Source of the DNA: a virus
Direction: 5' to 3' (one strand)
DNA: 29,744 bases
IMG/VR virus record: IMGVR_UViG_3300017593_001506
Coordinates: 1 to 29,744 of that record
The notes under the pieces were generated by a model. It did not search any database, had not been told where the DNA came from, and saw nothing but the letters and a program-made list of their open reading frames with translations. A program made the translations under genes and the position numbers. How positions within the stretch are numbered: the stretch's first letter is position 1; each line of letters opens with the position of its first letter. This document shows positions 4,377 to 29,744 of the stretch, in pieces.

Positions 4377-4580
4377 GTGAAAGAAAAGGAGCTGATAGAA
4401 AGGGATAAGAATAGTTATATTTACGTAGGAGATATTGTCAAAGCGACTTTTTATCCGGGATTTCGAGGTAGGTTAGGAGAAGTACGCTCTTGTTTAGACA
4501 ATTCTTGTTTAGTCCAGTTTTTTACTATCGAGGGAAAATATTGGGTTGATAGAAAATATTTAATAAAGGTGAAAAAATGA
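4377..4580 (+). CDS. small SH3/KOW-like hypothetical protein, 67 aa
   Basis: GTG at 4377 is preferred because AGGAGG at 4363-4368 lies 8 nt upstream. An in-frame GTG at 4368 would overlap that site. The product (KEKELIERDK... VGDIVKATFYPGFRGRLGEVRS... KYWVDRKYLIKVKK) has the short alternating strands of a KOW/SH3-like barrel and is a paralogue of the interrupted gene just upstream. It overlaps the polymerase start by 4 nt (ATGA), so it is translated with it. Role unknown. Confidence 0.65.
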   Translation: MKEKELIERDKNSYIYVGDIVKATFYPGFRGRLGEVRSCLDNSCLVQFFTIEGKYWVDRKYLIKVKK

Positions 4581-7796: not shown

Positions 7797-7954
7797 CCCC
7801 GCTCTGTGGCGGAAAAGGTAGACGCTTCAGTTTGGGATAGCTGTGAAGGGGGAGACACCACAGGATACTCTGCTTCCCGTTCGATTCGGGAAATTGACGT
7901 CTCTGGGGAACAATTCGAGTATCTATGTAAGTGCAAATCTTTGCCGGAGCGGGG
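7797..7954 (+). ncRNA. tRNA-like structured RNA, copy A (158 nt)
   Basis: The ends pair over 10 bp: CCCCGCTCTG (7797-7806) with CGGAGCGGGG (7945-7954). The next bases TG and the arm GCGGAAAAGGTAGACGC (7809-7825) match positions 8-25 of bacterial tRNA-Leu, with a 3-bp D-stem. The 3' part has TGCAAAT in the place of a T-loop. The interior is unlike a tRNA: CTTCA/TGAAG arm, GATACTC (7864-7870) pairing with GAGTATC (7917-7923), and a hairpin of 6 bp with loop TTCGATT (7877-7895 region). Copy B is at 17535-17633 and keeps both ends. No normal anticodon arm can be folded and no CCA is encoded, so it is not called a tRNA. It sits between two + strand genes. Confidence 0.6.
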
Positions 7955-13354: not shown

Positions 13355-14277
13355 TGGTAAAGAAGCAAGTTACGTATTATCAAACTGATGTAAAGAAGGT
13401 AATCGAGGAAGGAAAGAGGGCAACAAGAGGAGGAGGCTTAAGCGGCTTCTTCAATCCAAAAGTTGGGCCGAATGAGATTAGAATTTTACCGCCTTGGAGC
13501 GATAGCGGATTGCCTTTCAAAGAAGTCGTAGTACACTTTGGGATTGGCCCAGAAAGCCAGACAGTCGCTTGTTTGCGTCCGTTTAGGAAAAGATGTTATA
13601 TATGTGAGCAGGTTTCGAAGTTATGGTCTTCAGGTCTAGAACAGGATCAGGATACAGCACGCAGGATCGGAAGAGCGAATAGATATCTGTGGAATATAAT
13701 CGATTTACAAGAACCGGAGAAGGGGGTGCAGATTTTAAGTTGCGGCGTGAAATTATTTGAGCAAATCTGGGCGTACTTCGCAGACGAGGAGTGGGGAGAC
13801 CTAACTAATCCAGATAGCGGATACGATCTGACAATTGTTAGGGAGGGATTGGGATTGAAAACGAGATATACTAGCGTGAGGTTACGTAGGAATCCAACTA
13901 AGTTACAGAATATGGAGTGGTTAGAGTCACTAAACGATTTGGATAAGGCGTTGAACGTCTTGAGCTACGATGCTCAAAAAGAGTTGTACGAAGGATATGC
14001 CGAAGATGAGGAAGTTGGTATAGAAGAAGAAAATGTGATAGAAAGAGTGGAAGTAGCCCCGAAAGTGTCTCCGCCTAAAGTTGAGGAGCCTGGGATAGGT
14101 AGGGTTTTAGAGAAAACCACGTTAGAGAAGAAGTGCTTCGGGAATTTTGATCCACGGTTGTTTGCAGAAAGGGAATGTGTTAAGTGTCCCAAATTACAGG
14201 ACTGTATGAAAGCTGCCCAAGACAATGAAAGCGATGCCCGTGAGATAGAAAGAGAACTGAAGGAGGGGTTAAAGTGA
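13354..14277 (+). CDS. gp32-like single-stranded-DNA-binding protein
   Basis: A 307-aa protein that would coat ssDNA during replication and recombination. The basic N-terminus (1-25), OB-like core (RILPPWSDSGLPFKEVVVHF), and a zinc site H61-x11-C73-x7-C81-x2-C84 closely match the H64/C77/C87/C90 site of T4 gp32. NRYLWNIIDLQEPEKGVQIL and the following segment match phage SSB cores. The tail is acidic (about 220-245), as expected for partner binding, and then carries a second Cys cluster (CFGNFDPRLFAERECVKCPK, then LQDC) absent from T4 gp32. It shares GTGATAA with the next gene. Confidence 0.85.
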   Translation: MVKKQVTYYQTDVKKVIEEGKRATRGGGLSGFFNPKVGPNEIRILPPWSDSGLPFKEVVVHFGIGPESQTVACLRPFRKRCYICEQVSKLWSSGLEQDQDTARRIGRANRYLWNIIDLQEPEKGVQILSCGVKLFEQIWAYFADEEWGDLTNPDSGYDLTIVREGLGLKTRYTSVRLRRNPTKLQNMEWLESLNDLDKALNVLSYDAQKELYEGYAEDEEVGIEEENVIERVEVAPKVSPPKVEEPGIGRVLEKTTLEKKCFGNFDPRLFAERECVKCPKLQDCMKAAQDNESDAREIERELKEGLK

Positions 14278-15065
14278 TAAAAGTTTGTCACCTGGCTTCT
14301 ACGCCCCATTTGAAATTAGCTTCTACCTATTCAAGCTTCTATCTGATGCTAGCTCATGTTAAAGACGAGGGATATTGGAACTTTTTCAAACAGTTAAAGA
14401 AAGAGAGCCCGAAGTTTAAGTTAGTTCTTGACTGCGGAACTTTAGAGAACGGGGTACCTGTAACTAACAAAAGACTATTTGATAAAGCAGTTGAAGTTGG
14501 AGCCGACGCAATTGTAGCACCAGACCACTTTAGAGATTGTAAAAGAACGATAGAATCGACAGAGAAGTTTATAGACTTTCTAAAAGAACGGAACAGACTA
14601 GAAAAAACAGGATTTGAAATTTGGGCAGCAGCGCAGGGAAGGAGTGTGGAGGAGTACTTCACCTCCTTCCTCCGTTTTTATAATAATCCAGACATAGATA
14701 AGGTCTGTCTGAGTTACATAATTGTTAAAGAGGTATTCGACCCAATTGTACATGGACACAGAGTGATGCCTAATCGATTGTATCTTACTAAGTTATTAAA
14801 TGAGTTACAACTAACTAAAAAGCCGATTCATCTATTCGGTCTAGGTAATCCAATTGAGTTAAAGTATCAGAGGATATACCCTTTTATTAAATCATGTGAC
14901 TCCTCAGCAGCGTTCGCATTAGCATCGAGACAATTGTCGTTAGAGAGTAAGGGATATGATAGAGATATAAAGGTGATAGATTTGAATAGAAGATTAAGTG
15001 GACCGGAGGCAGATACATTTGAACATAATATGAGGCAAATAAATAAATGGAGGTGGCCAAGATAA
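14274..15065 (+). CDS. DpdA/Tgt-like 7-deazaguanine transglycosylase
   Basis: A 263-aa TIM-barrel protein of the tRNA-guanine transglycosylase family. The phage members (DpdA) exchange guanine in DNA for preQ0-type bases. Family positions are visible: LDCGTLENG (D53) for the first catalytic Asp, VAPDHFRDCKRTIE (D84) for the base-binding Asp, WAAAQGRSVEEY (Q121-G122), IHLFGLGNP (G189-G191), and KSCDSSAAFALASR (D209) for the nucleophile. The C-terminal zinc site of bacterial Tgt (CxCxxC...H) is absent, as in many short phage forms. The GTG start overlaps the SSB stop, after AAGGAGG. FolE, QueD, QueE and QueC follow, which strongly supports a DNA-modifying role over tRNA. Confidence 0.8.
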   Translation: MIKVCHLASTPHLKLASTYSSFYLMLAHVKDEGYWNFFKQLKKESPKFKLVLDCGTLENGVPVTNKRLFDKAVEVGADAIVAPDHFRDCKRTIESTEKFIDFLKERNRLEKTGFEIWAAAQGRSVEEYFTSFLRFYNNPDIDKVCLSYIIVKEVFDPIVHGHRVMPNRLYLTKLLNELQLTKKPIHLFGLGNPIELKYQRIYPFIKSCDSSAAFALASRQLSLESKGYDRDIKVIDLNRRLSGPEADTFEHNMRQINKWRWPR

Positions 15066-15346
15066 ATATTGAAGAAATAATAAAGGTAATAGCTAGAGGA
15101 CATCCAGAAGAGAGAGAGGGAAAACCTAATAGTTATCCAGAGGCTTGGGATGCTGGGTTTGAGGCGGGATGTAGTTACGCTGTTTTGAAACTCTTGGAGC
15201 TAAAAAAAGAGATGGAGGGAAAGATTCTAGAGGCACAAGGTAGACGTAAGGAGACAAAGGGAGCTAGTAAGTTTTATCTTGGTGGGGTTATCGATGCCTA
15301 TAAGACGTTACTAGGCGCTCAAAAAGAAGAAGGAGGTAATAAGTGA
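15047..15346 (+). CDS. hypothetical protein, 99 aa
   Basis: Begins 19 nt inside the transglycosylase gene, at ATG 15047, and ends with GTGA overlap at FolE. The sequence has IEEIIKVIARGHPEEREGKP, NSYPEAWDAGFEAGCSYAVL and a helical Lys/Glu tail. EAWDAGFEAGCSYAV looks like short phage proteins found beside nucleotide genes, but no function is known. Position inside the 7-deazaguanine operon suggests an accessory role. Confidence 0.6.
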   Translation: MEVAKINIEEIIKVIARGHPEEREGKPNSYPEAWDAGFEAGCSYAVLKLLELKKEMEGKILEAQGRRKETKGASKFYLGGVIDAYKTLLGAQKEEGGNK

Positions 15347-15912
15347 AACATCCATTGAAGTATGAAAGATATGTACATGATTTTCTAGAATATGTAGGGG
15401 AAGACCCGAGCAGAGAAGGGCTAAGAGGTACTCCAAAAAGGGTAGTCGATGCTGTACAAGAGCTCCTAAGAGGATATACGACTCCAATGCCGGACCTAAA
15501 AACCTTTAAGTCTACTAACGATCAAATGGTAGTTTCAAGCGGGATTCATTGTTTCTCTATGTGCGAACACCATGTTTTACCTATCTGGATTGTAGCAGAT
15601 GTTGGATATATACCTAATAAAAAAGTAATCGGTATTTCAAAAATTTCTCGATTAGTCAAATGGTGTTGCGCTAGATTAGTTATCCAGGAGGATTTAACAG
15701 ATAGGATAGCAGAGATTTTAACAGAACGCCTTAACCCTTTAGGAGTTATAGTTGTGTTAAGGGGTAGGCATATGTGTATGGAAATGCGAGGAGTTAAAAC
15801 GAACTCAGTTATTACAACTTCAGCGATAAGAGGTTTGTTTAAAAAGCCTCTAAACACAGGGCTTAACCCAGTCGAAGAGTTTTTACATCATTGTAGAAGG
15901 AGTGTGATATGA
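15343..15912 (+). CDS. folE: GTP cyclohydrolase I
   Basis: Converts GTP to 7,8-dihydroneopterin triphosphate, the first step to preQ0. At 189 aa it matches the single-domain family length. Zinc ligands C74 and H77 lie in FSMCEHHVLP and C145 in RHMCMEMRG, and the substrate pocket runs VIGISKISRLVKW and GVKTNSVITTSAIRG. The start is GTG 15343 after AAGAAGGAGGTAATAA. In this context it supplies the 7-deazaguanine pathway rather than folate. Confidence 0.95.
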   Translation: MKHPLKYERYVHDFLEYVGEDPSREGLRGTPKRVVDAVQELLRGYTTPMPDLKTFKSTNDQMVVSSGIHCFSMCEHHVLPIWIVADVGYIPNKKVIGISKISRLVKWCCARLVIQEDLTDRIAEILTERLNPLGVIVVLRGRHMCMEMRGVKTNSVITTSAIRGLFKKPLNTGLNPVEEFLHHCRRSVI

Positions 15913-16271
15913 GAATAATAGTTGAAACTAAGTCTGAATCAGCTCATTACATCCCAGGACATCCTAAATGCGGGCAGATCCATGGCCACTCATATAAGCT
16001 AAGAGCTGAAATCGGAGGGAAGACGAACCTAAACGGTATGGTTGTTGATTTCGGGGATGTTAAAAAGGTTTTGAGACAATTTGACCACCGTTGTATAAAC
16101 GACGTCGCAAGGGAAAAAAATATTGAGCAGTTAGTAATACCTACAGCGGAGAATCTAGCTAGCTACTTTGTATCGGAAATTGTTAAACTCTTAAACGATC
16201 ACTATTCAATAAAAGTTGTAGTTTGCGAGACTGAAAACAACTGTGCAGAGGAAACTTATGAAAATTTCTGA
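15909..16271 (+). CDS. queD: 6-carboxy-5,6,7,8-tetrahydropterin synthase
   Basis: Converts dihydroneopterin triphosphate to 6-carboxytetrahydropterin, step two of preQ0 synthesis. At 120 aa it has the family length. Zinc histidines H13, H25 and H27 (SAHYIPG and IHGHSY), catalytic C21, MVVDFGDVKK, FDHRCIND and PTAENLA are all present. It overlaps folE by 4 nt and queE by 14 nt. Confidence 0.93.
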   Translation: MRIIVETKSESAHYIPGHPKCGQIHGHSYKLRAEIGGKTNLNGMVVDFGDVKKVLRQFDHRCINDVAREKNIEQLVIPTAENLASYFVSEIVKLLNDHYSIKVVVCETENNCAEETYENF

Positions 16272-16899
16272 GATATTCTACAGTATCCAAGGTGAGGGAG
16301 TGAGTATAGGTAGACCGACAGCATTCGTGAGGACGTATGGCTGTAACTTACGCTGCTCCTATTGTGATACCATTTACGCAAGGGAAGGGGGTAACTTCAC
16401 AGACACAACAGTAGAGGAAGTAGTTGAGAAGGTTAAGGAGTTCCCAACTAGGTTATGCTGTGTAACAGGCGGCGAGCCTATGATACAAGAAGAGATATAC
16501 AACTTAATCGATCTGTTAATAAAGAACAGTTATGAGGTAGACTTAGAAACTAATGGGACAATATTACTTCCGCTTACGTTCTGTTCTAAAGAAAAACTAC
16601 ACGTTGTGGTTGATTGTAAGTGCCCGTGTTCAGGGGAAAATGAATTCAGAGAAGCTAACCTGGGCAGACTCTCTGATAAAGATGCTGTCAAGTTTGTAGT
16701 AAGAGATAAGACAGATTTTAGTTTTATTAAGAAAAAGTTAAAAGAGTGGGGTGGACCTGAGTTAAAGTACTTAGTTTCACCTATTTGGGGTGAGGCGGAC
16801 CTCGCAGAAGTAGCAGAGTTCGTAAAAGGTGACAGCCGTCTCACCCTTAACCTTCAGTTGCATAAAATAGTTTGGCCAAATAAAGTTGGAGGAGTTTAA
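16258..16899 (+). CDS. queE: 7-carboxy-7-deazaguanine synthase (radical SAM)
   Basis: Radical SAM enzyme converting 6-carboxytetrahydropterin to 7-carboxy-7-deazaguanine. ATG 16258 is chosen over the in-frame GTG 16243 because homologues start MKISEIFYSIQGEG and AGAGGAAA precedes it; this gives 213 aa. The cluster cysteines are C29, C33 and C36 in GCNLRCSYCDT. VTGGEPMIQ binds SAM, FYSIQGEG binds substrate, and LQLHKIVWP is the typical C-terminal motif. It follows queD with a 14-nt overlap. Confidence 0.94.
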   Translation: MKISEIFYSIQGEGVSIGRPTAFVRTYGCNLRCSYCDTIYAREGGNFTDTTVEEVVEKVKEFPTRLCCVTGGEPMIQEEIYNLIDLLIKNSYEVDLETNGTILLPLTFCSKEKLHVVVDCKCPCSGENEFREANLGRLSDKDAVKFVVRDKTDFSFIKKKLKEWGGPELKYLVSPIWGEADLAEVAEFVKGDSRLTLNLQLHKIVWPNKVGGV

Positions 16900-16902
16900 T
16901 AA

Positions 16903-17523
16903 ATGATAGAAACGAGAGTAAAAAATCTATGGAAGTTGCTGTTACTAACTTCTATTTTTATCGGAAGTCTAGTAATAGCAAATGTGATTGTCAGTAAAAT
17001 TATTGCTGCATTCTGGTATTTTTGCATACCAGGGGGGGTGATAGCATATGCGGTTACTTTTTTAATGACAGATACAATCTGTGAGGTTTGGGGTAAAAAG
17101 ATAGGGAATCTTATTGTAGCTGTAGGCTTTTTGGCGCAGCTGGTTGTTCTATGCTTAACAATGGTTACATTAAAGTGGCCGGCTGCTGGGTTCTGGAAAA
17201 ATCAAGCTGCCTTTGAGAGTATATTAGGTATAATGCCACGCATAGTCTTAGCATCGTTAATAGCGTATTTAGTCTCACAGTTTCACGATATCTGGGCATT
17301 CCATAAATGGAAAACCATCACAAAAGGTAAACATTTGTGGATTAGAAATAATGCATCCACTATGGTATCCCAGTTTATAGACAGTGTGATATTCGTGACA
17401 ATAGCGTTTGCTGGGGTAATGCCTGTACAGCCGTTAGTCCTAGGCCAATGGGTATTTAAGTTGATAATAGCTGCAATTGATACTCCGTTTGTGTACGGGT
17501 TAGTAAACTGGGCTAAAAAATAA
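16903..17523 (+). CDS. YhhQ/QueT-type queuosine-precursor transporter
   Basis: An integral membrane protein of 206 aa with about six hydrophobic segments (roughly 11-33, 43-57, 66-88, 108-127, 153-172, 182-200). Family marks include TDTICEVWGKKIGN, SQFHDIWAFHKWK, RNNASTMVSQFIDSVIFV and the terminal DTPFVYGLVNW. The family (DUF165) imports preQ0, preQ1 or queuine. Encoded by a phage beside the preQ0 synthesis genes, it would let infected cells take up the base or a precursor. It starts 3 nt after queE. Confidence 0.88.
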   Translation: MIETRVKNLWKLLLLTSIFIGSLVIANVIVSKIIAAFWYFCIPGGVIAYAVTFLMTDTICEVWGKKIGNLIVAVGFLAQLVVLCLTMVTLKWPAAGFWKNQAAFESILGIMPRIVLASLIAYLVSQFHDIWAFHKWKTITKGKHLWIRNNASTMVSQFIDSVIFVTIAFAGVMPVQPLVLGQWVFKLIIAAIDTPFVYGLVNWAKK

Positions 17524-17534
17524 ATTACAATATT

Positions 17535-17633
17535 CTCCCGCTCTGTGGTGGAATAGGTAAACACAAGGACTGGTAACTGCTCTGAAACGCCAGTAATGGG
17601 CTTGCAGAGTGCGAATCTTTGCCGGAGTGGGAG
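17535..17633 (+). ncRNA. tRNA-like structured RNA, copy B (99 nt)
   Basis: The ends pair over 11 bp: CTCCCGCTCTG (17535-17545) with CGGAGTGGGAG (17623-17633), extendable by two A-T pairs. The D-arm-like GTGGAATAGGTAAACAC (17548-17564) follows TG as in tRNA-Leu. A T-arm-like GCAGAG-TGCGAAT-CTTTGC (17604-17622) abuts the 3' strand. The middle arm is AAG/CTT with ACTGG (17569-17573) pairing CCAGT (17590-17594) around a 16-nt loop, so no 7-nt anticodon loop forms. The long acceptor stem and absence of CCA separate it from a normal tRNA. It shares both ends with copy A and lies between the transporter and queC. Confidence 0.65.
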
Positions 17634-17655
17634 AAAATAACTCTCCGTTAGGTAG

Positions 17656-17698
17656 TATGGTTGCCGTTCGTTCATAAAGGATAGGCGGCAACCGCATA
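17656..17698 (+). other. hairpin in the queC leader
   Basis: GGTTGCCG (17659-17666) pairs perfectly with CGGCAACC (17686-17693) around a 19-nt loop, and TATG/CATA extends it after a small bulge. It ends 13 nt before the queC ATG, ahead of AAAGGAGGAG. There is no T tract, so it looks like a leader structure rather than a terminator. Confidence 0.55.
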
Positions 17699-17711
17699 AA
17701 AGGAGGAGTAA

Positions 17712-18443
17712 ATGAAAAACAAAACTTGTATCGTCCTATGGAGTAAGGGCATGGATAGCACGGTATGCCTGTGGGTAGCATCGAAAAAATTTAAAGACGT
17801 TATTGCACTAAAAATTTTCTACGGCCAAAAGTGCAGAGAAGAAATGAGGCCTTGGGGTACAGCTTTACCAAAGAATGTTAAAGTAAAAGATATAGATTAT
17901 AATCTAAATTTCTGTAATTCTTCTTTAGTTCGATCTAGCGAAGATGTTAAACGTTCGAGAGAATTAAGTAGCAAAATTCCGAGAACTTTCATGCCGTGTA
18001 GAAATCTAATTTTCTTGACATTAGCAGCAGCGTACGGTTACCCCGACATTGTAGACATTTTTATAGGTACAAATACGATTGATTACAGTGGGTACTCAGA
18101 TTGTCGTTCTAACTTCTTGTATCATGCAGAAAACACAATCTCACTTGCTCTAGATAAAAAAGTTAAGATACATCGACCGTTACAACAATTAAGTAAGGCA
18201 GATATTATAAAGTGGGGTATAGATTTAGGAGTCGACTTTGCTAATACTGTTTCTTGCTATAACCCGAGTTTTGGCGTCCCGTGTTTCATACCGCCACTAA
18301 AAGTTTCATCGAAAATGAGTCTAGAAGAGTTACAGAAAGATCCAGTTGGATGTGAGAGTTGCGTCATAAGATGTAAAGCATTTAATAAGCTTAAAATGGT
18401 TGACCCGTTGTTAACAAGATTGAGAAAGGAGGGGTTGATATAG
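17712..18443 (+). CDS. queC: 7-cyano-7-deazaguanine (preQ0) synthase
   Basis: ATP-dependent enzyme turning 7-carboxy-7-deazaguanine into preQ0; 243 aa. The pyrophosphatase loop reads WSKGMDSTVCLW (11-17 SKGMDST; most members have SGGxDST). PCRNLIFLTLAAAYG and IGTNTIDYSGYSDCR are typical. The zinc site is unusual: C182 and then GCESCVIRC (C214, C217, C221), with about 30 residues inserted, including C191, where the family has about 8. It may still bind zinc through C191. The start follows AAAGGAGGAGTAA. Confidence 0.9.
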   Translation: MKNKTCIVLWSKGMDSTVCLWVASKKFKDVIALKIFYGQKCREEMRPWGTALPKNVKVKDIDYNLNFCNSSLVRSSEDVKRSRELSSKIPRTFMPCRNLIFLTLAAAYGYPDIVDIFIGTNTIDYSGYSDCRSNFLYHAENTISLALDKKVKIHRPLQQLSKADIIKWGIDLGVDFANTVSCYNPSFGVPCFIPPLKVSSKMSLEELQKDPVGCESCVIRCKAFNKLKMVDPLLTRLRKEGLI

Positions 18444-18844
18444 TGCATTTGTACATGACGTATTGTTGTAGACAAAAACACTTTTCCATTTTACCGCAAA
18501 CACCTGAGAAGTTATATATCTCGAAGCGTATAAAACAGTTCTTCGACTTTGTTAAAGCTAATAACTTACCGTTTGCAGTTTTCTCTGACAAATATGGCGT
18601 AGTATTTTCAAATGAAAAAATTATGTGGTATGATGTACCTCCAGGGAAAGTAAGAAATAGAACTAAGCTCTTTACTCGAGCATTGACAGAGCTTCGGAGA
18701 AGAGGCATTTCTAAAATCTGTTTCTGGGCCCCCGCTCCTCTAGAACCCTTATATAAAGAATTTATAAAGGAGTTGAGAAATACCTTTCCAGTTTGCGTAA
18801 GAAAAGAACTAGTTGTGTTTAAAGAAGATAAAGGAAGGAGGTAA
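18443..18844 (+). CDS. DUF6884/ArcS-like small protein
   Basis: A 133-aa alpha/beta protein starting GTG 18443, sharing a base with the queC stop. The pattern MTYCCRQKH near the N-terminus, then FAVFSDKYGVVFSNEKIMWYDVP (45-67) and ISKICFWAPAPLEPLYKEFI matches the layout of DUF6884-type proteins and of the archaeosine-synthase (ArcS, DUF5591) N-terminal fold: first strand plus Cys/Ser, 'SxKYG', later a (P)xxY element. Its place directly after queC suggests a role in handling or further modifying the 7-deazaguanine base. Family assignment is from pattern only. Confidence 0.5.
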   Translation: MHLYMTYCCRQKHFSILPQTPEKLYISKRIKQFFDFVKANNLPFAVFSDKYGVVFSNEKIMWYDVPPGKVRNRTKLFTRALTELRRRGISKICFWAPAPLEPLYKEFIKELRNTFPVCVRKELVVFKEDKGRR

Positions 18845-26763: not shown

Positions 26764-26916
26764 TTATTCGTCTGGATGAGCACCTAAATGAAAATCAAAT
26801 AGATTTTTCAGCATTTCTAACGCATCTTCCTTATTATCGAATTCTTGCTCAATACTAGGCGCAGCTTCCAGCCTGATATAAATTTTTCCCTCTGATATAT
26901 TTATTATTAATCTCAT
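26764..26916 (-). CDS. hypothetical protein, 50 aa
   Basis: ATG 26916 overlaps the stop of the radical SAM gene (ATGA), with GGAG 7 nt upstream. The product MRLIINISEGKIYIRLEAAP then SIEQEFDNKEDALEMLKNLF has two strands and a helix, the size of a small peptide-binding or RRE-like element, but too short for certainty. It lies between the radical SAM and DUF483-like genes. Confidence 0.55.
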   Translation of the reverse strand: MRLIINISEGKIYIRLEAAPSIEQEFDNKEDALEMLKNLFDFHLGAHPDE

Positions 26917-28244
26917 CCCGAATCTCCATGTCTTTGATAATTGCCGTGTGGTATATCGGCATGTTTACCCTCATAACCTTTTGGAGGTTTATCATTCCAA
27001 TCTTCCCAATCTCGCTCTGGATTATTCGAATCACTGTGTCTAGCATAATCTCCGTGTGAATCGGAATGGTCTTCTCCTCCCCTTTCCCTCCTCTTTTTTC
27101 TTGTATAATTAGAAGAGGTTCTCCAAGTGGAACCCTCCATTCTTTCAACCTTATTGCAAAACTTGTAATTAGACACAGAATCTTCCGGTCCTTCAACTTT
27201 ATAATCAGTTATTAACTTTATCCTAGGGAATAGACCTCTGCTCCGTTTTTCAATCTTTTCGTACAAGGAATAATAGACTTCGCAAAATACCGATTTATTC
27301 CTCCAATCTCCGTCAATTGCCTCCGAGGGACATAATCCAGAACATATTGGCCAGTATTTACAGCCTTTACATCCTCCAAACTCCTTTGGTGTATTGAATA
27401 ACGCTTCGTACCTGATCTTTATAGGTGCTTCACCTTGCAGAACATTGCCACTTACCACTGTTTTCATACAATTTCTAATACTCCCGTCACCCAAAATAAC
27501 ATGCGCTGAGTTAGTCCAAAAAGGGTCGCACTGATGGTAAATACAAGTTGATTGCCTAAATCCCATCAAATTATCTATTATATCTCTAAAAGGTTGCCAT
27601 TGTAATTTATCGTCGGCAAGAATAAAATCGCACATATCTGAATAGAAATCCTTGAATTCATTAACGGTCGGAACATAATCCCCTTTTCCTAATACTGGAT
27701 TCATTCGTCCACTTGGACAGCCAATTCCCTTCATTTCCATAATAAAATCCTTAAACTTCTTTCGCTGTTTTGGAAGGCAGTTATATTTTGTTATTACCGA
27801 AATTAGTCCCACTGAAATCTTTTCGTATCGTAGTTTGTAGATATTTTTGATAACTTTTATTGTCCGCTCCTTATTTTTTTCTCTCCATCTCCCCATGTTT
27901 AGTTCATCGGGTCCATCAATAGAAATTCCAATAGCTGTTTTATATTTCTTAAACATTGCTATAATTTCATCATCGATTAGCAATCCGTTTGTCTGCATCG
28001 ATGTTTTCCCAGCAAGTTCGAACCCTTTTTTTAATAACTTTTCAAGGTCATGTTTAGGAATTAATAGAGGCTCACCTCCATGCAGACAAATATCAGTCTT
28101 AAATCGCTTGTGAGCGGTTTCCATAGCTGATAATACTCTACTTAAATCGTAGTCTAAAAGCATTTTCTTTTTTCTTAAATTATTCTCATAGCAATAAATA
28201 CAATTGCTATTACATCTCATTGTTGGCTTAACTAATATGCTCAT
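26913..28244 (-). CDS. radical SAM/SPASM peptide maturase with Asp/His-rich tail
   Basis: A 443-aa enzyme of the peptide-modifying radical SAM family. The catalytic cluster is C11, C15, C18 in MRCNSNCIYCYE, with HGGEPLL (55-61) and GISIDGP (106-112). The SPASM region has C234, C239, C259 and CKGCKYWPICSGLCPSEA (C292, C295, C301, C305), then C321, enough for two auxiliary Fe-S clusters as in anSME and PqqE-like enzymes. Residues 391-443 are not part of the enzyme fold: they repeat the style of the neighbouring protein (HSDSHGDYARHSDS, DWEDWNDKP). The ATG overlaps the stop of the repeat protein by one base (TAATG), so the two are translationally coupled. A part of the gene is duplicated in reverse at the window end. 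Confidence 0.9.
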   Translation of the reverse strand: MSILVKPTMRCNSNCIYCYENNLRKKKMLLDYDLSRVLSAMETAHKRFKTDICLHGGEPLLIPKHDLEKLLKKGFELAGKTSMQTNGLLIDDEIIAMFKKYKTAIGISIDGPDELNMGRWREKNKERTIKVIKNIYKLRYEKISVGLISVITKYNCLPKQRKKFKDFIMEMKGIGCPSGRMNPVLGKGDYVPTVNEFKDFYSDMCDFILADDKLQWQPFRDIIDNLMGFRQSTCIYHQCDPFWTNSAHVILGDGSIRNCMKTVVSGNVLQGEAPIKIRYEALFNTPKEFGGCKGCKYWPICSGLCPSEAIDGDWRNKSVFCEVYYSLYEKIEKRSRGLFPRIKLITDYKVEGPEDSVSNYKFCNKVERMEGSTWRTSSNYTRKKRRERGGEDHSDSHGDYARHSDSNNPERDWEDWNDKPPKGYEGKHADIPHGNYQRHGDSG

Positions 28245-29365
28245 TAAACTTCTCCTTCATAAGCTGGTTTATCTGTATGACCTGCTCCCGAATCATTATG
28301 ATTATCCCAGTCTTGGTATGCGACATCGGAATAATCTGCGTGATCGGAGTGCGGTCTGTCGGAATACTTTGTATAGTCTTCATATCCTGTTCCTGTATCT
28401 TCGTGCGAATAATCCAAATGTTCAACGTCGGAATGATCGCTATGGTCATCGTGAGGTACGTCGGAATGGTCACCATGGTCTCGATGCGCTGTATCATTGT
28501 GATCGCTGTGGTCTTCGTGAGCATCATCTATATGGTCATTCCATTCATCTCCCGAATTACTGTGATCGTTATGGTCTTCGTGAGCATCATCTATGTGCGG
28601 CATATCTGACCAAGTAGTATTATCATGATCGCTATGATTATCGTGGTTATCCCACTGAAAATGGTCGTGATATGGGCCGGAATAAGAGTCTTCATGGTCA
28701 TCATAATCATCATGATCGTCGTGATCTTCATAAATTTCATCGGACCAATCACTATAAGCTTCGTCATTGTGCTGATCCCAATCGCTATGTGTGTCAGTAT
28801 GATCGCCCCAATCATCATAAGGAACATTATCATGGTCATCCCAATTTGTATGGGAATCGTTGTGGTCATCCCAATCTGAATGTGCTGTATCGTCATGGTC
28901 ATCCCAATTTGAATGTGCTATATCATGATGATCCTGATGATCTGCATGCACATCATTATATTCGTCCCAATCACTATAATCAGTATGAGGTGCTGTATCA
29001 TAATGATATGTTCCATCTTGATGAGCAGAATCATTATGCGGTGAAGAATCCTGGTGAAATGAATCGTCATGATTCTCGTGTGCGATATATCTTTCTTCTC
29101 CCGCTTGGTCAATGATTCTGGGATAATTCTCAATCCAGATGCTGCCTTGTAATGCTCCAGTTGGAAAATTACTAGTTGAAGTCATAGTAATAATCCGCTT
29201 ATGACCATCATCATCAATATACGCAATCAAAGAACCTTCAATCCAAAGCGAGCCTTTTAACCCTGCAACTAATCCTTCGTCTGTTCCTTCAATCGAATAT
29301 TCACTGCTTCCTTTTATCCAATGTAATTTAGTCCCCTCAACCCAAATACTTCCTGATTTTGCCAT
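28244..29365 (-). CDS. Asp/His/Trp repeat fibre-like protein, likely radical SAM substrate
   Basis: A 373-aa protein, very acidic and without cysteine. Residues 1-94 hold three beta units starting GSIWVEG, GSLWIEG and GSIWIEN, of a type seen in phage tail-fibre modules. Residues 95-365 are about 24 imperfect 11-residue repeats of the form [ST]-x-x-H-x-D-[WHY]-x-D-H-x-D; for example TAHSDWDDHND (160-170), DVPHDDHSDHS and TAHRDHGDHSD. The C-terminus ends HTDKPAYEGEV. It lies after a tail-type gene and immediately before the radical SAM/SPASM gene (one-base overlap), an arrangement typical of precursor and maturase. The many Asp/His could bind metal in a trimeric shaft. Function is inferred. Confidence 0.75.
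   Translation of the reverse strand: MAKSGSIWVEGTKLHWIKGSSEYSIEGTDEGLVAGLKGSLWIEGSLIAYIDDDGHKRIITMTSTSNFPTGALQGSIWIENYPRIIDQAGEERYIAHENHDDSFHQDSSPHNDSAHQDGTYHYDTAPHTDYSDWDEYNDVHADHQDHHDIAHSNWDDHDDTAHSDWDDHNDSHTNWDDHDNVPYDDWGDHTDTHSDWDQHNDEAYSDWSDEIYEDHDDHDDYDDHEDSYSGPYHDHFQWDNHDNHSDHDNTTWSDMPHIDDAHEDHNDHSNSGDEWNDHIDDAHEDHSDHNDTAHRDHGDHSDVPHDDHSDHSDVEHLDYSHEDTGTGYEDYTKYSDRPHSDHADYSDVAYQDWDNHNDSGAGHTDKPAYEGEV
28271..29083 (-). repeat. degenerate 33-bp tandem repeats encoding the Asp/His array
   Basis: The coding DNA of residues 95-365 repeats with a 33-nt period (11 codons), most clearly between 28790 and 28920, where GTCATCCCAATNTGAATG-type units recur on the + strand. Units are diverged in third positions, so the array has been kept by protein-level selection rather than recent slippage. 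Such repeats are also hard to assemble, and their copy number here may not be exact. Confidence 0.75.
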
Positions 29366-29676: not shown

Positions 29677-29744
29677 GCAACCTTTTAGAGATATAATAGA
29701 TAATTTGATGGGATTTAGGCAATCAACTTGTATTTACCATCAGT
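29677..29744. repeat. inverted copy of 27530-27597 (radical SAM gene) at the window end
   Basis: These last 68 bases are the exact reverse complement of 27530-27597, inside the radical SAM gene. Identity starts at GCAACC (29677-29682) and stops being testable at the window end. It cuts into the tail gene reading frame just upstream of 29663. A fold-back of the contig (chimera or misassembly) explains it more simply than a natural duplication without any divergence. Confidence 0.9.

Follow-up and report, generated by a model that had tools for sequence, protein, structure and literature searches.

The window, meaning the whole 29,744-nt stretch of viral DNA that was analyzed, contains two tRNA-like elements on its plus strand, copy A (7797-7954) and copy B (17533-17635). 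They lie 9.7 kb apart, are 88% identical over their first 26 nt and 82% over their last 33 nt, and both have a tRNA-Leu-type D-arm, a T-arm and a long acceptor stem. In copy A, delimited from its sequence and with a covariance model, the 5' acceptor strand CCCCGCTCTG (7797-7806) pairs over 10 bp, including one G-U pair, with the 3' strand CGGAGCGGGG (7945-7954); the 7-bp core defined by acceptor covariation in the family described below lies at 7800-7806. The following segment (7807-7825) comprises U8-G9 and the D-arm proper (7809-7825), with the stem GCG/CGC, at a position that covaries in the family, and the loop GAAAAGGTAGA. The T-arm (7927-7944) consists of GTAAG/CTTTGC with one bulged U and the loop TGCAAAT. 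The insert of approximately 100 nt between these arms contains a 7-bp long-range stem (GATACTC, 7864-7870, with GAGTATC, 7917-7923) and two features read from this single sequence, a candidate crossing stem (GAGAC, 7852-7856, with GTCTC, 7899-7903) and an extra hairpin (TTCCCG, 7874-7879, with CGGGAA, 7887-7892) closed by the T-loop-like sequence TTCGATT. The 10-bp acceptor-like stem, the D-arm, the long-range stem and the 6-bp TTCGATT hairpin are all where an earlier sequence-only reading had placed them, and the second copy with common ends that it had reported about 10 kb away is copy B.

Copy B is a typical family member of approximately 100 nt with a 13-bp acceptor stem, in which the 7-bp family core (17539-17545 with 17623-17629) was assigned from the sequence and the covariance model. 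Its D-arm (17548-17564) has the stem GTG/CAC, a compensatory change with respect to GCG/CGC of copy A, and its T-arm (17604-17622) pairs GCAGAG with CTTTGC over 6 bp around the loop TGCGAAT. Two helices were placed in its insert by crossing-stem analysis: S1 (ACTGGT, 17569-17574, with GCCAGT, 17589-17594) and S2 (GCTC, 17579-17582, with GGGC, 17598-17601). Single-sequence folding energy was unremarkable for copy A (z = -1.5) and modest for copy B (z = -2.5). As folding energy is not proof for either copy, the evidence is carried by more than 100 relatives that display strong compensatory change.

The pattern used to find these relatives consisted of the D-loop and T-loop letters only, separated by a gap of 30-60 nt. 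It matched at least 119 viral contigs, nearly all with the common architecture, and the more than 100 distinct relatives come mainly from phages and prophages of Bacillota and also from Enterococcus pheromone plasmids; the family is widespread in viruses and plasmids with Gram-positive hosts. Searching by other routes was less productive: relatives reached via the phage DNA polymerase were only about 30% identical phages with no clear copy in any of them, and patterns from the 3' end gave no matches or unrelated sequences. BLAST matches in cyanophages were rejected as members, being tRNA-Leu genes. The anatomy common to the family consists of a 7-bp covarying acceptor, an invariant U8-G9, a 3-bp covarying D-stem with a near-invariant D-loop and, on the 3' side, a near-invariant U followed by a 6-bp T-stem with the T-loop UGCAAAU, the T-stem being stacked on the acceptor; an anticodon arm is absent.

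Covariation was analyzed in an alignment (A1) of 83 non-redundant sequences that had been pre-filtered for a paired D-stem and some acceptor pairing. In this set, 97.9% of the cells of the acceptor (7 bp), D-stem (3 bp) and T-stem (6 bp) were paired, compared to 71% in shuffled alignments, and 381 double-change cells were counted vs. 104 in the shuffles, with double changes in 14 of the 16 pairs. None of 500 shuffles reached as high a covariation score, and slid versions of the helices lowered pairing to 35-46%. The compensatory changes in homologues that the earlier reading had asked for are thus present. When the pairing filter was omitted, the pattern matches split cleanly into members with a complete T-stem (6/6 in 143 of 212) and acceptor (7/7 in 126 of 212) and a remainder at background level. 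Pairing along the acceptor was 83-99% by position, then 59-61% for two positions and then background, which sets its limit at 7 to 9 bp; apart from pairing, the acceptor sequence is largely unconstrained across the family.

Conservation of the D- and T-loops is partly a result of selection because the search pattern fixed those letters. Outside the selection criteria, U8-G9 (tRNA positions 8 and 9) was found in 112 of 112 relatives and the U preceding the T-stem (tRNA position 48) in 110 of 112. The tRNA core is thus represented by U8, the D-loop GG, nucleotide 48, the T-loop and the 7-bp acceptor, and the departures from it are G55 and the 6-bp T-stem; the D-loop of the member on plasmid pMG2200 is without the GG pair. 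With G for U at position 55 of the T-loop and a 6-bp T-stem, the elbow and the 13-bp stack are expected to be unlike those of elongator tRNAs. Taken as a whole, the family is almost certainly a real structured RNA.

Both window copies were examined with a covariance model (R2) that had no window sequence in its training set. Copy B was recovered with 55.6 bits (E=1.2e-12), and the 5' half of copy A with 27.6 bits (E=2.5e-5), a score no better than that of true tRNA-Leu genes, which obtain approximately 30-45 bits with the family model. Its large insert and a T-stem that is fully paired only when one U is bulged make copy A an outlier, and it was assigned to the family because of the ends it has in common with copy B, its T-arm and its lack of an anticodon arm, in addition to the score. 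A third window match (14243-14344, minus strand, 16 bits) was judged to be chance.

The insert that takes the place of the anticodon arm has no long sequence conserved among members. A segment ending 2-3 nt before the T-stem pairs with the upstream insert (S2; z = 18 for 5-mers, relative to the inserts of other members), and a second helix (S1) crosses S2 (z = 5.9). In the one subfamily that could be aligned (seven distinct sequences), double changes were found in 3 of 4 S2 pairs and 3 of 6 S1 pairs. The pairing of S2, the crossing S1 helix and these compensatory changes indicate that the insert forms an H-type pseudoknot in most members. Nested hairpins between the pseudoknot strands were no commoner than expected by chance, and the shortest members retain S2 alone, as a hairpin. 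The insert of copy B fits an H-type pseudoknot and copy A is a large version of it, in which the long-range stem takes the family position of S2.

Among annotated phages, members were found in Lactobacillus phages Sha1, LP65 and phiJL-1, Listeria phages LP-101 and LP-114, Enterococcus phages EG-TP1, EFDG1 and EA1, Leuconostoc phage Ln-9, Weissella phage PWc, Paenibacillus phage Pd_22F, and the SPbeta-like phages BUCT082, BUCT083, phi3T (a B. subtilis phage) and SPbetaL4. A similar pattern identified 80 loci in bacterial assemblies (one genome per species), 29 of which scored at least 59 bits with the model; these 29 belong to Weissella, Listeria, Enterococcus, lactobacilli, Clostridia, Bacillaceae and a few MAGs assigned to other phyla. 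Among sampled genomes, a member was present in 16 of 121 from Lactobacillaceae, 6 of 25 from Listeria and 3 of 149 taken from across the phylum. None was found in the E. coli genomes searched, and the partial stretch of Listeria phage P100 that was searched gave no match. For the highly transcribed non-coding regions of Listeria phage CKA15 (PMC12282133), no tie to the family was established. Multiple copies with differing inserts occur within one phage at loci L128, L175 and L163 and in the window.

Members are intergenic, with both neighbors co-directional in 58 of 93 cases, and in 23 of 102 the element starts within 25 nt of a same-strand upstream stop codon, as in the window. Gene calls in the metagenomic loci were crude (longest non-overlapping ORFs). 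Upstream genes often encode transcriptional regulators or activators such as precede phage late genes: phrog_36, a late-activator type, accounts for at least 17 of 78, phrog_248 for 13 and phrog_2198 for 8, in overlapping sets. Terminase small subunits recur downstream. Some members have other contexts, either mid-operon or in tRNA/tmRNA clusters, the phage tRNA clusters of LP65 and EFDG1 among them. In EFDG1, an unannotated Rfam tmRNA match (L261 2645-2995, 140.6 bits) lies in the tRNA cluster directly upstream of the member.

Phages of the SPbeta group differ in whether they have the element between yonN and yonK: it is a presence/absence module that the four SPbeta-like phages named above carry and SPBc2 and SPbetaL2 lack. 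As SPBc2 is without the element, the YonO-linked non-coding RNA of SPbeta cannot be the family RNA. The late operon of SPbeta-like loci begins with a long yonN-yonK gap (L266 3140-4660 and L268 2316-3996) that is non-coding and conserved; it includes a DUF3800-VIII RNA match, and most of it is unassigned. On plasmids pMG2200 and pKUB3006-2, the member occupies the gap that separates sea1/prgA from the aggregation-substance gene. Downstream of the member, this gap also contains a tRNA-like element of a different kind, whose T-loop is the canonical TTCGAYT (L282, pMG2200, approximately 1801-1873; L278, approximately 4440-4511), and the stretch between the two tRNA-like elements is conserved and unannotated. 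The prgB leader mechanism of Enterococcus plasmid pCF10 (PMC8265641) was suspected to be connected with the family, an idea that was dropped, the element being absent from pCF10.

One of the closest known RNAs is tRNA-Leu (RF00005). The family D-arm UGGCGGAAUAGGUAGACGC is nearly identical to that of tRNA-Leu, and U8, the 7-bp acceptor and a T-arm with its T-loop are shared; in contrast to tRNA-Leu, the family has no anticodon arm, a 6-bp T-stem, the T-loop UGCAAAU with G at 55 and a pseudoknot insert. ARAGORN predicted no gene anywhere in the window or at those member positions that were checked, and Rfam RF00005 scores a typical member at 15.5 bits vs. a cut-off of 29. The joining of a tRNA-like acceptor and T-arm to a pseudoknot recalls tmRNA (RF00023), from which the family differs by a real tRNA-Leu-type D-stem, a length of about 90-150 nt and no tag reading frame seen; neither RF00023 nor the tmRNA search of ARAGORN gave a match in the window, including A and B, or in typical members. 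The bacterial Y RNA YrlA is a tRNA mimic bound by Ro60/Rsr, and its occurrence in mycobacteriophages has been reported. The family resembles YrlA as a small tRNA-mimicking RNA found in some phages; the Rfam Y RNA models gave no match at E ≤ 10 for A, B or relative L113, and no Ro60/Rsr gene was seen among the scanned window proteins. MALAT1 mascRNA-type elements and the 3' tRNA-like structures of plant viruses likewise mimic tRNA without decoding and recruit RNase P, RNase Z or other tRNA enzymes (PMC4810234). Unlike the family, they occur in eukaryotic or RNA-virus contexts, and in the plant-virus structures the pseudoknot forms the acceptor, whereas in the family it replaces the anticodon arm. 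ROOL and GOLLD are large phage non-coding RNAs that are often near tRNA islands (PMC12286853); they measure several hundred nt, form RNA cages and have no sequence or structure match to the family. One member lies just downstream of a ROOL (L062), and the known phage RNAs mcrA and ROOL (L264 4120-4170, L080 2062-2112 and L062 2067-2606) occur within approximately 200 nt of members.

Rfam searches with A, B and relatives, at gathering and permissive thresholds, gave no family at the element, ribozymes and riboswitches included; the family is absent from Rfam 15. No description of it was found in the openly licensed full-text literature, and it may have been mentioned earlier elsewhere. Judged by these sequence comparisons, the family apparently is a new class of tRNA-mimic RNA. 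The proposal of a new class of phage RNA, made from copies A and B alone, is well supported by a large covarying family in which A, B and typical relatives have no Rfam match. tRNA mimicry is well known from plant RNA viruses and tmRNA; a widespread family dedicated to it in DNA phages and conjugative plasmids, whose decoding arm has given way to a pseudoknot, appears undescribed.

Two functions suggested earlier for copy A are not supported. One is a decoy for tRNA enzymes, proposed with a nearby Tgt-family enzyme in view. TGT acts at the UGU of the anticodon loop, which these RNAs do not have, and no TGT domain (Pfam) was found in the scanned window proteins; the ORF at 18443-18841 matches DUF6884 only below the Pfam cut-off, and the families most common in the immediate neighborhood of the relatives include none of Tgt type. 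The other, a catalytic or self-processing RNA, has no support: known ribozyme families gave no match, and beyond the tRNA-like body no conserved core was seen. Processing by host tRNA enzymes explains the element better.

Annotated cyanophage tRNA-Leu genes match the D-arm over 20-23 nt at 95-100%, and descent from tRNA-Leu is the simplest reading of these sequences. The family looks built for handling by the cellular tRNA machinery without ever decoding. Following the 7-bp acceptor, base 73 is A in 53% of relatives (p = 6e-5) and U in 28%, base 74 is U in 57% (p = 4e-12), and a U at 74 or 75 is found in 67%. An encoded CCA was found in 1 of 109 members and T-runs within 40 nt downstream in only 12 of 109. 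In CCA-less tRNAs, a uracil no more than 2 nt from the discriminator stimulates B. subtilis RNase Z approximately 200-fold (PMC10100781), and the tRNA elbow is a site of recognition or contact for RNase P and RNase Z (PMC4810234). The acceptor boundary, A73, U74 and the missing CCA resemble CCA-less tRNA precursors, which favors processing by RNase P and RNase Z. Across the family the features of such precursors are found (elbow-type arms, 7-bp acceptor, no CCA, U after 73), but the window copies have acceptors of 10 and 13 bp and G at 73-74, so that the RNase Z signal is a family tendency and not a property of A or B. In the mechanism we propose, the D-loop would dock with the T-loop to form a tRNA elbow, upon which cleavage by RNase P (5' side) and RNase Z (3' side) would excise the embedded element. 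These cuts would separate the flanking mRNAs and release a stable, CCA-tailable, non-decoding RNA of about 90-150 nt. Most likely, the element would serve to process the transcripts of phage operons, in many cases close to the early/late junction, and to set free a stable structured RNA from them. We put the chances that RNase P and RNase Z maturation does both, releasing a stable tRNA-like RNA and separating the mRNAs, at about even. If matured, the element would offer phages a new means of operon punctuation or of supplying the host tRNA system with a non-decoding tRNA.

The departures of the T-loop and T-stem from elongator tRNAs, the missing GG of the pMG2200 member, the long acceptors and G73-74 of the window copies and the members in other contexts count against the processing account. 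So does the pseudoknot, which is not obviously required for a pure processing signal. It has a place in the main rival, which is compatible with the same maturation: the released RNA could act in trans as a tRNA mimic that occupies or redirects tRNA-handling partners to the benefit of the phage, with the variable pseudoknot conferring a specific function. Candidate partners are the CCA-adding enzyme, LeuRS, EF-Tu, the ribosome and tRNA-targeting defence proteins. The near identity of the D-arm to tRNA-Leu, the several copies with different inserts in one phage and the members in phage tRNA clusters, that of EFDG1 directly after a predicted tmRNA, point in this direction. On the other hand, the acceptor sequence is loosely constrained, the inserts have no long conserved sequence and the partner is putative; leucylation was rejected as a general property, since the discriminator is A in only 53% of relatives and U in 28%. 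Action in trans is therefore a tentative possibility, and it is rather doubtful that the family is a new phage and plasmid RNA class in which a tRNA-Leu body with a pseudoknot would be matured, CCA-tailed and then act in trans on translation or tRNA surveillance during infection.

Control of neighboring genes in cis, as a leader or 3'-UTR element, would need no excision: the fold would bring about attenuation, antitermination or RNA protection, and the tRNA shape would serve to recruit a factor. That members frequently follow late-activator genes and precede the terminase region agrees with this, but they occur in many unrelated contexts, including mid-operon in the window, and the 7-bp acceptor boundary and U74 resemble maturation signals. 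The absence of the element from the same locus of SPBc2 and SPbetaL2 indicates that it is not essential to that leader, and we consider a cis-acting role improbable. A DNA-level site (cos/pac, attachment or homing site) might explain why the element is near the record end in phiJL-1, Ln-9 and LP-101 and why HNH genes are common neighbors. DNA has no need of conserved tRNA core positions or a crossing pseudoknot, and multi-copy members, both window copies included, are far from ends, making such a site very improbable. That members are degenerate phage tRNA genes is scarcely credible: tRNA-Leu ancestry is likely and the tRNA-like loci of LP65 are annotated as pseudo tRNA-OTHER, but compensatory change keeps the helices, the body is nearly invariant across unrelated phages, and the anticodon is uniformly absent with a conserved kind of fold in its place. 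Maturation by host tRNA enzymes is thus the reading we prefer.

Copy B sits between the queuosine-precursor transporter gene and queC, in a 7-deazaguanine cluster (15343-18841) that encodes GTP cyclohydrolase, QueD, QueE, the transporter, QueC and the weak DUF6884 protein. Between copy B and queC there is a strong hairpin (17660-17695; GGTTGCCG / CGGCAACC) without an Rfam riboswitch match. A 68-nt perfect inverted repeat (27530-27597 and 29677-29744), the second arm of which is at the contig end, is probably an assembly fold-back artefact. On the minus strand, a radical SAM peptide-maturase-like gene (26913-28244), which comes closest to cyclophane-forming and sulfatase maturases at scores far under the cut-offs, adjoins an ORF (28244-29365) with internal repeats of 21-42 nt and no family match; together they possibly represent a RiPP-like modified peptide system.
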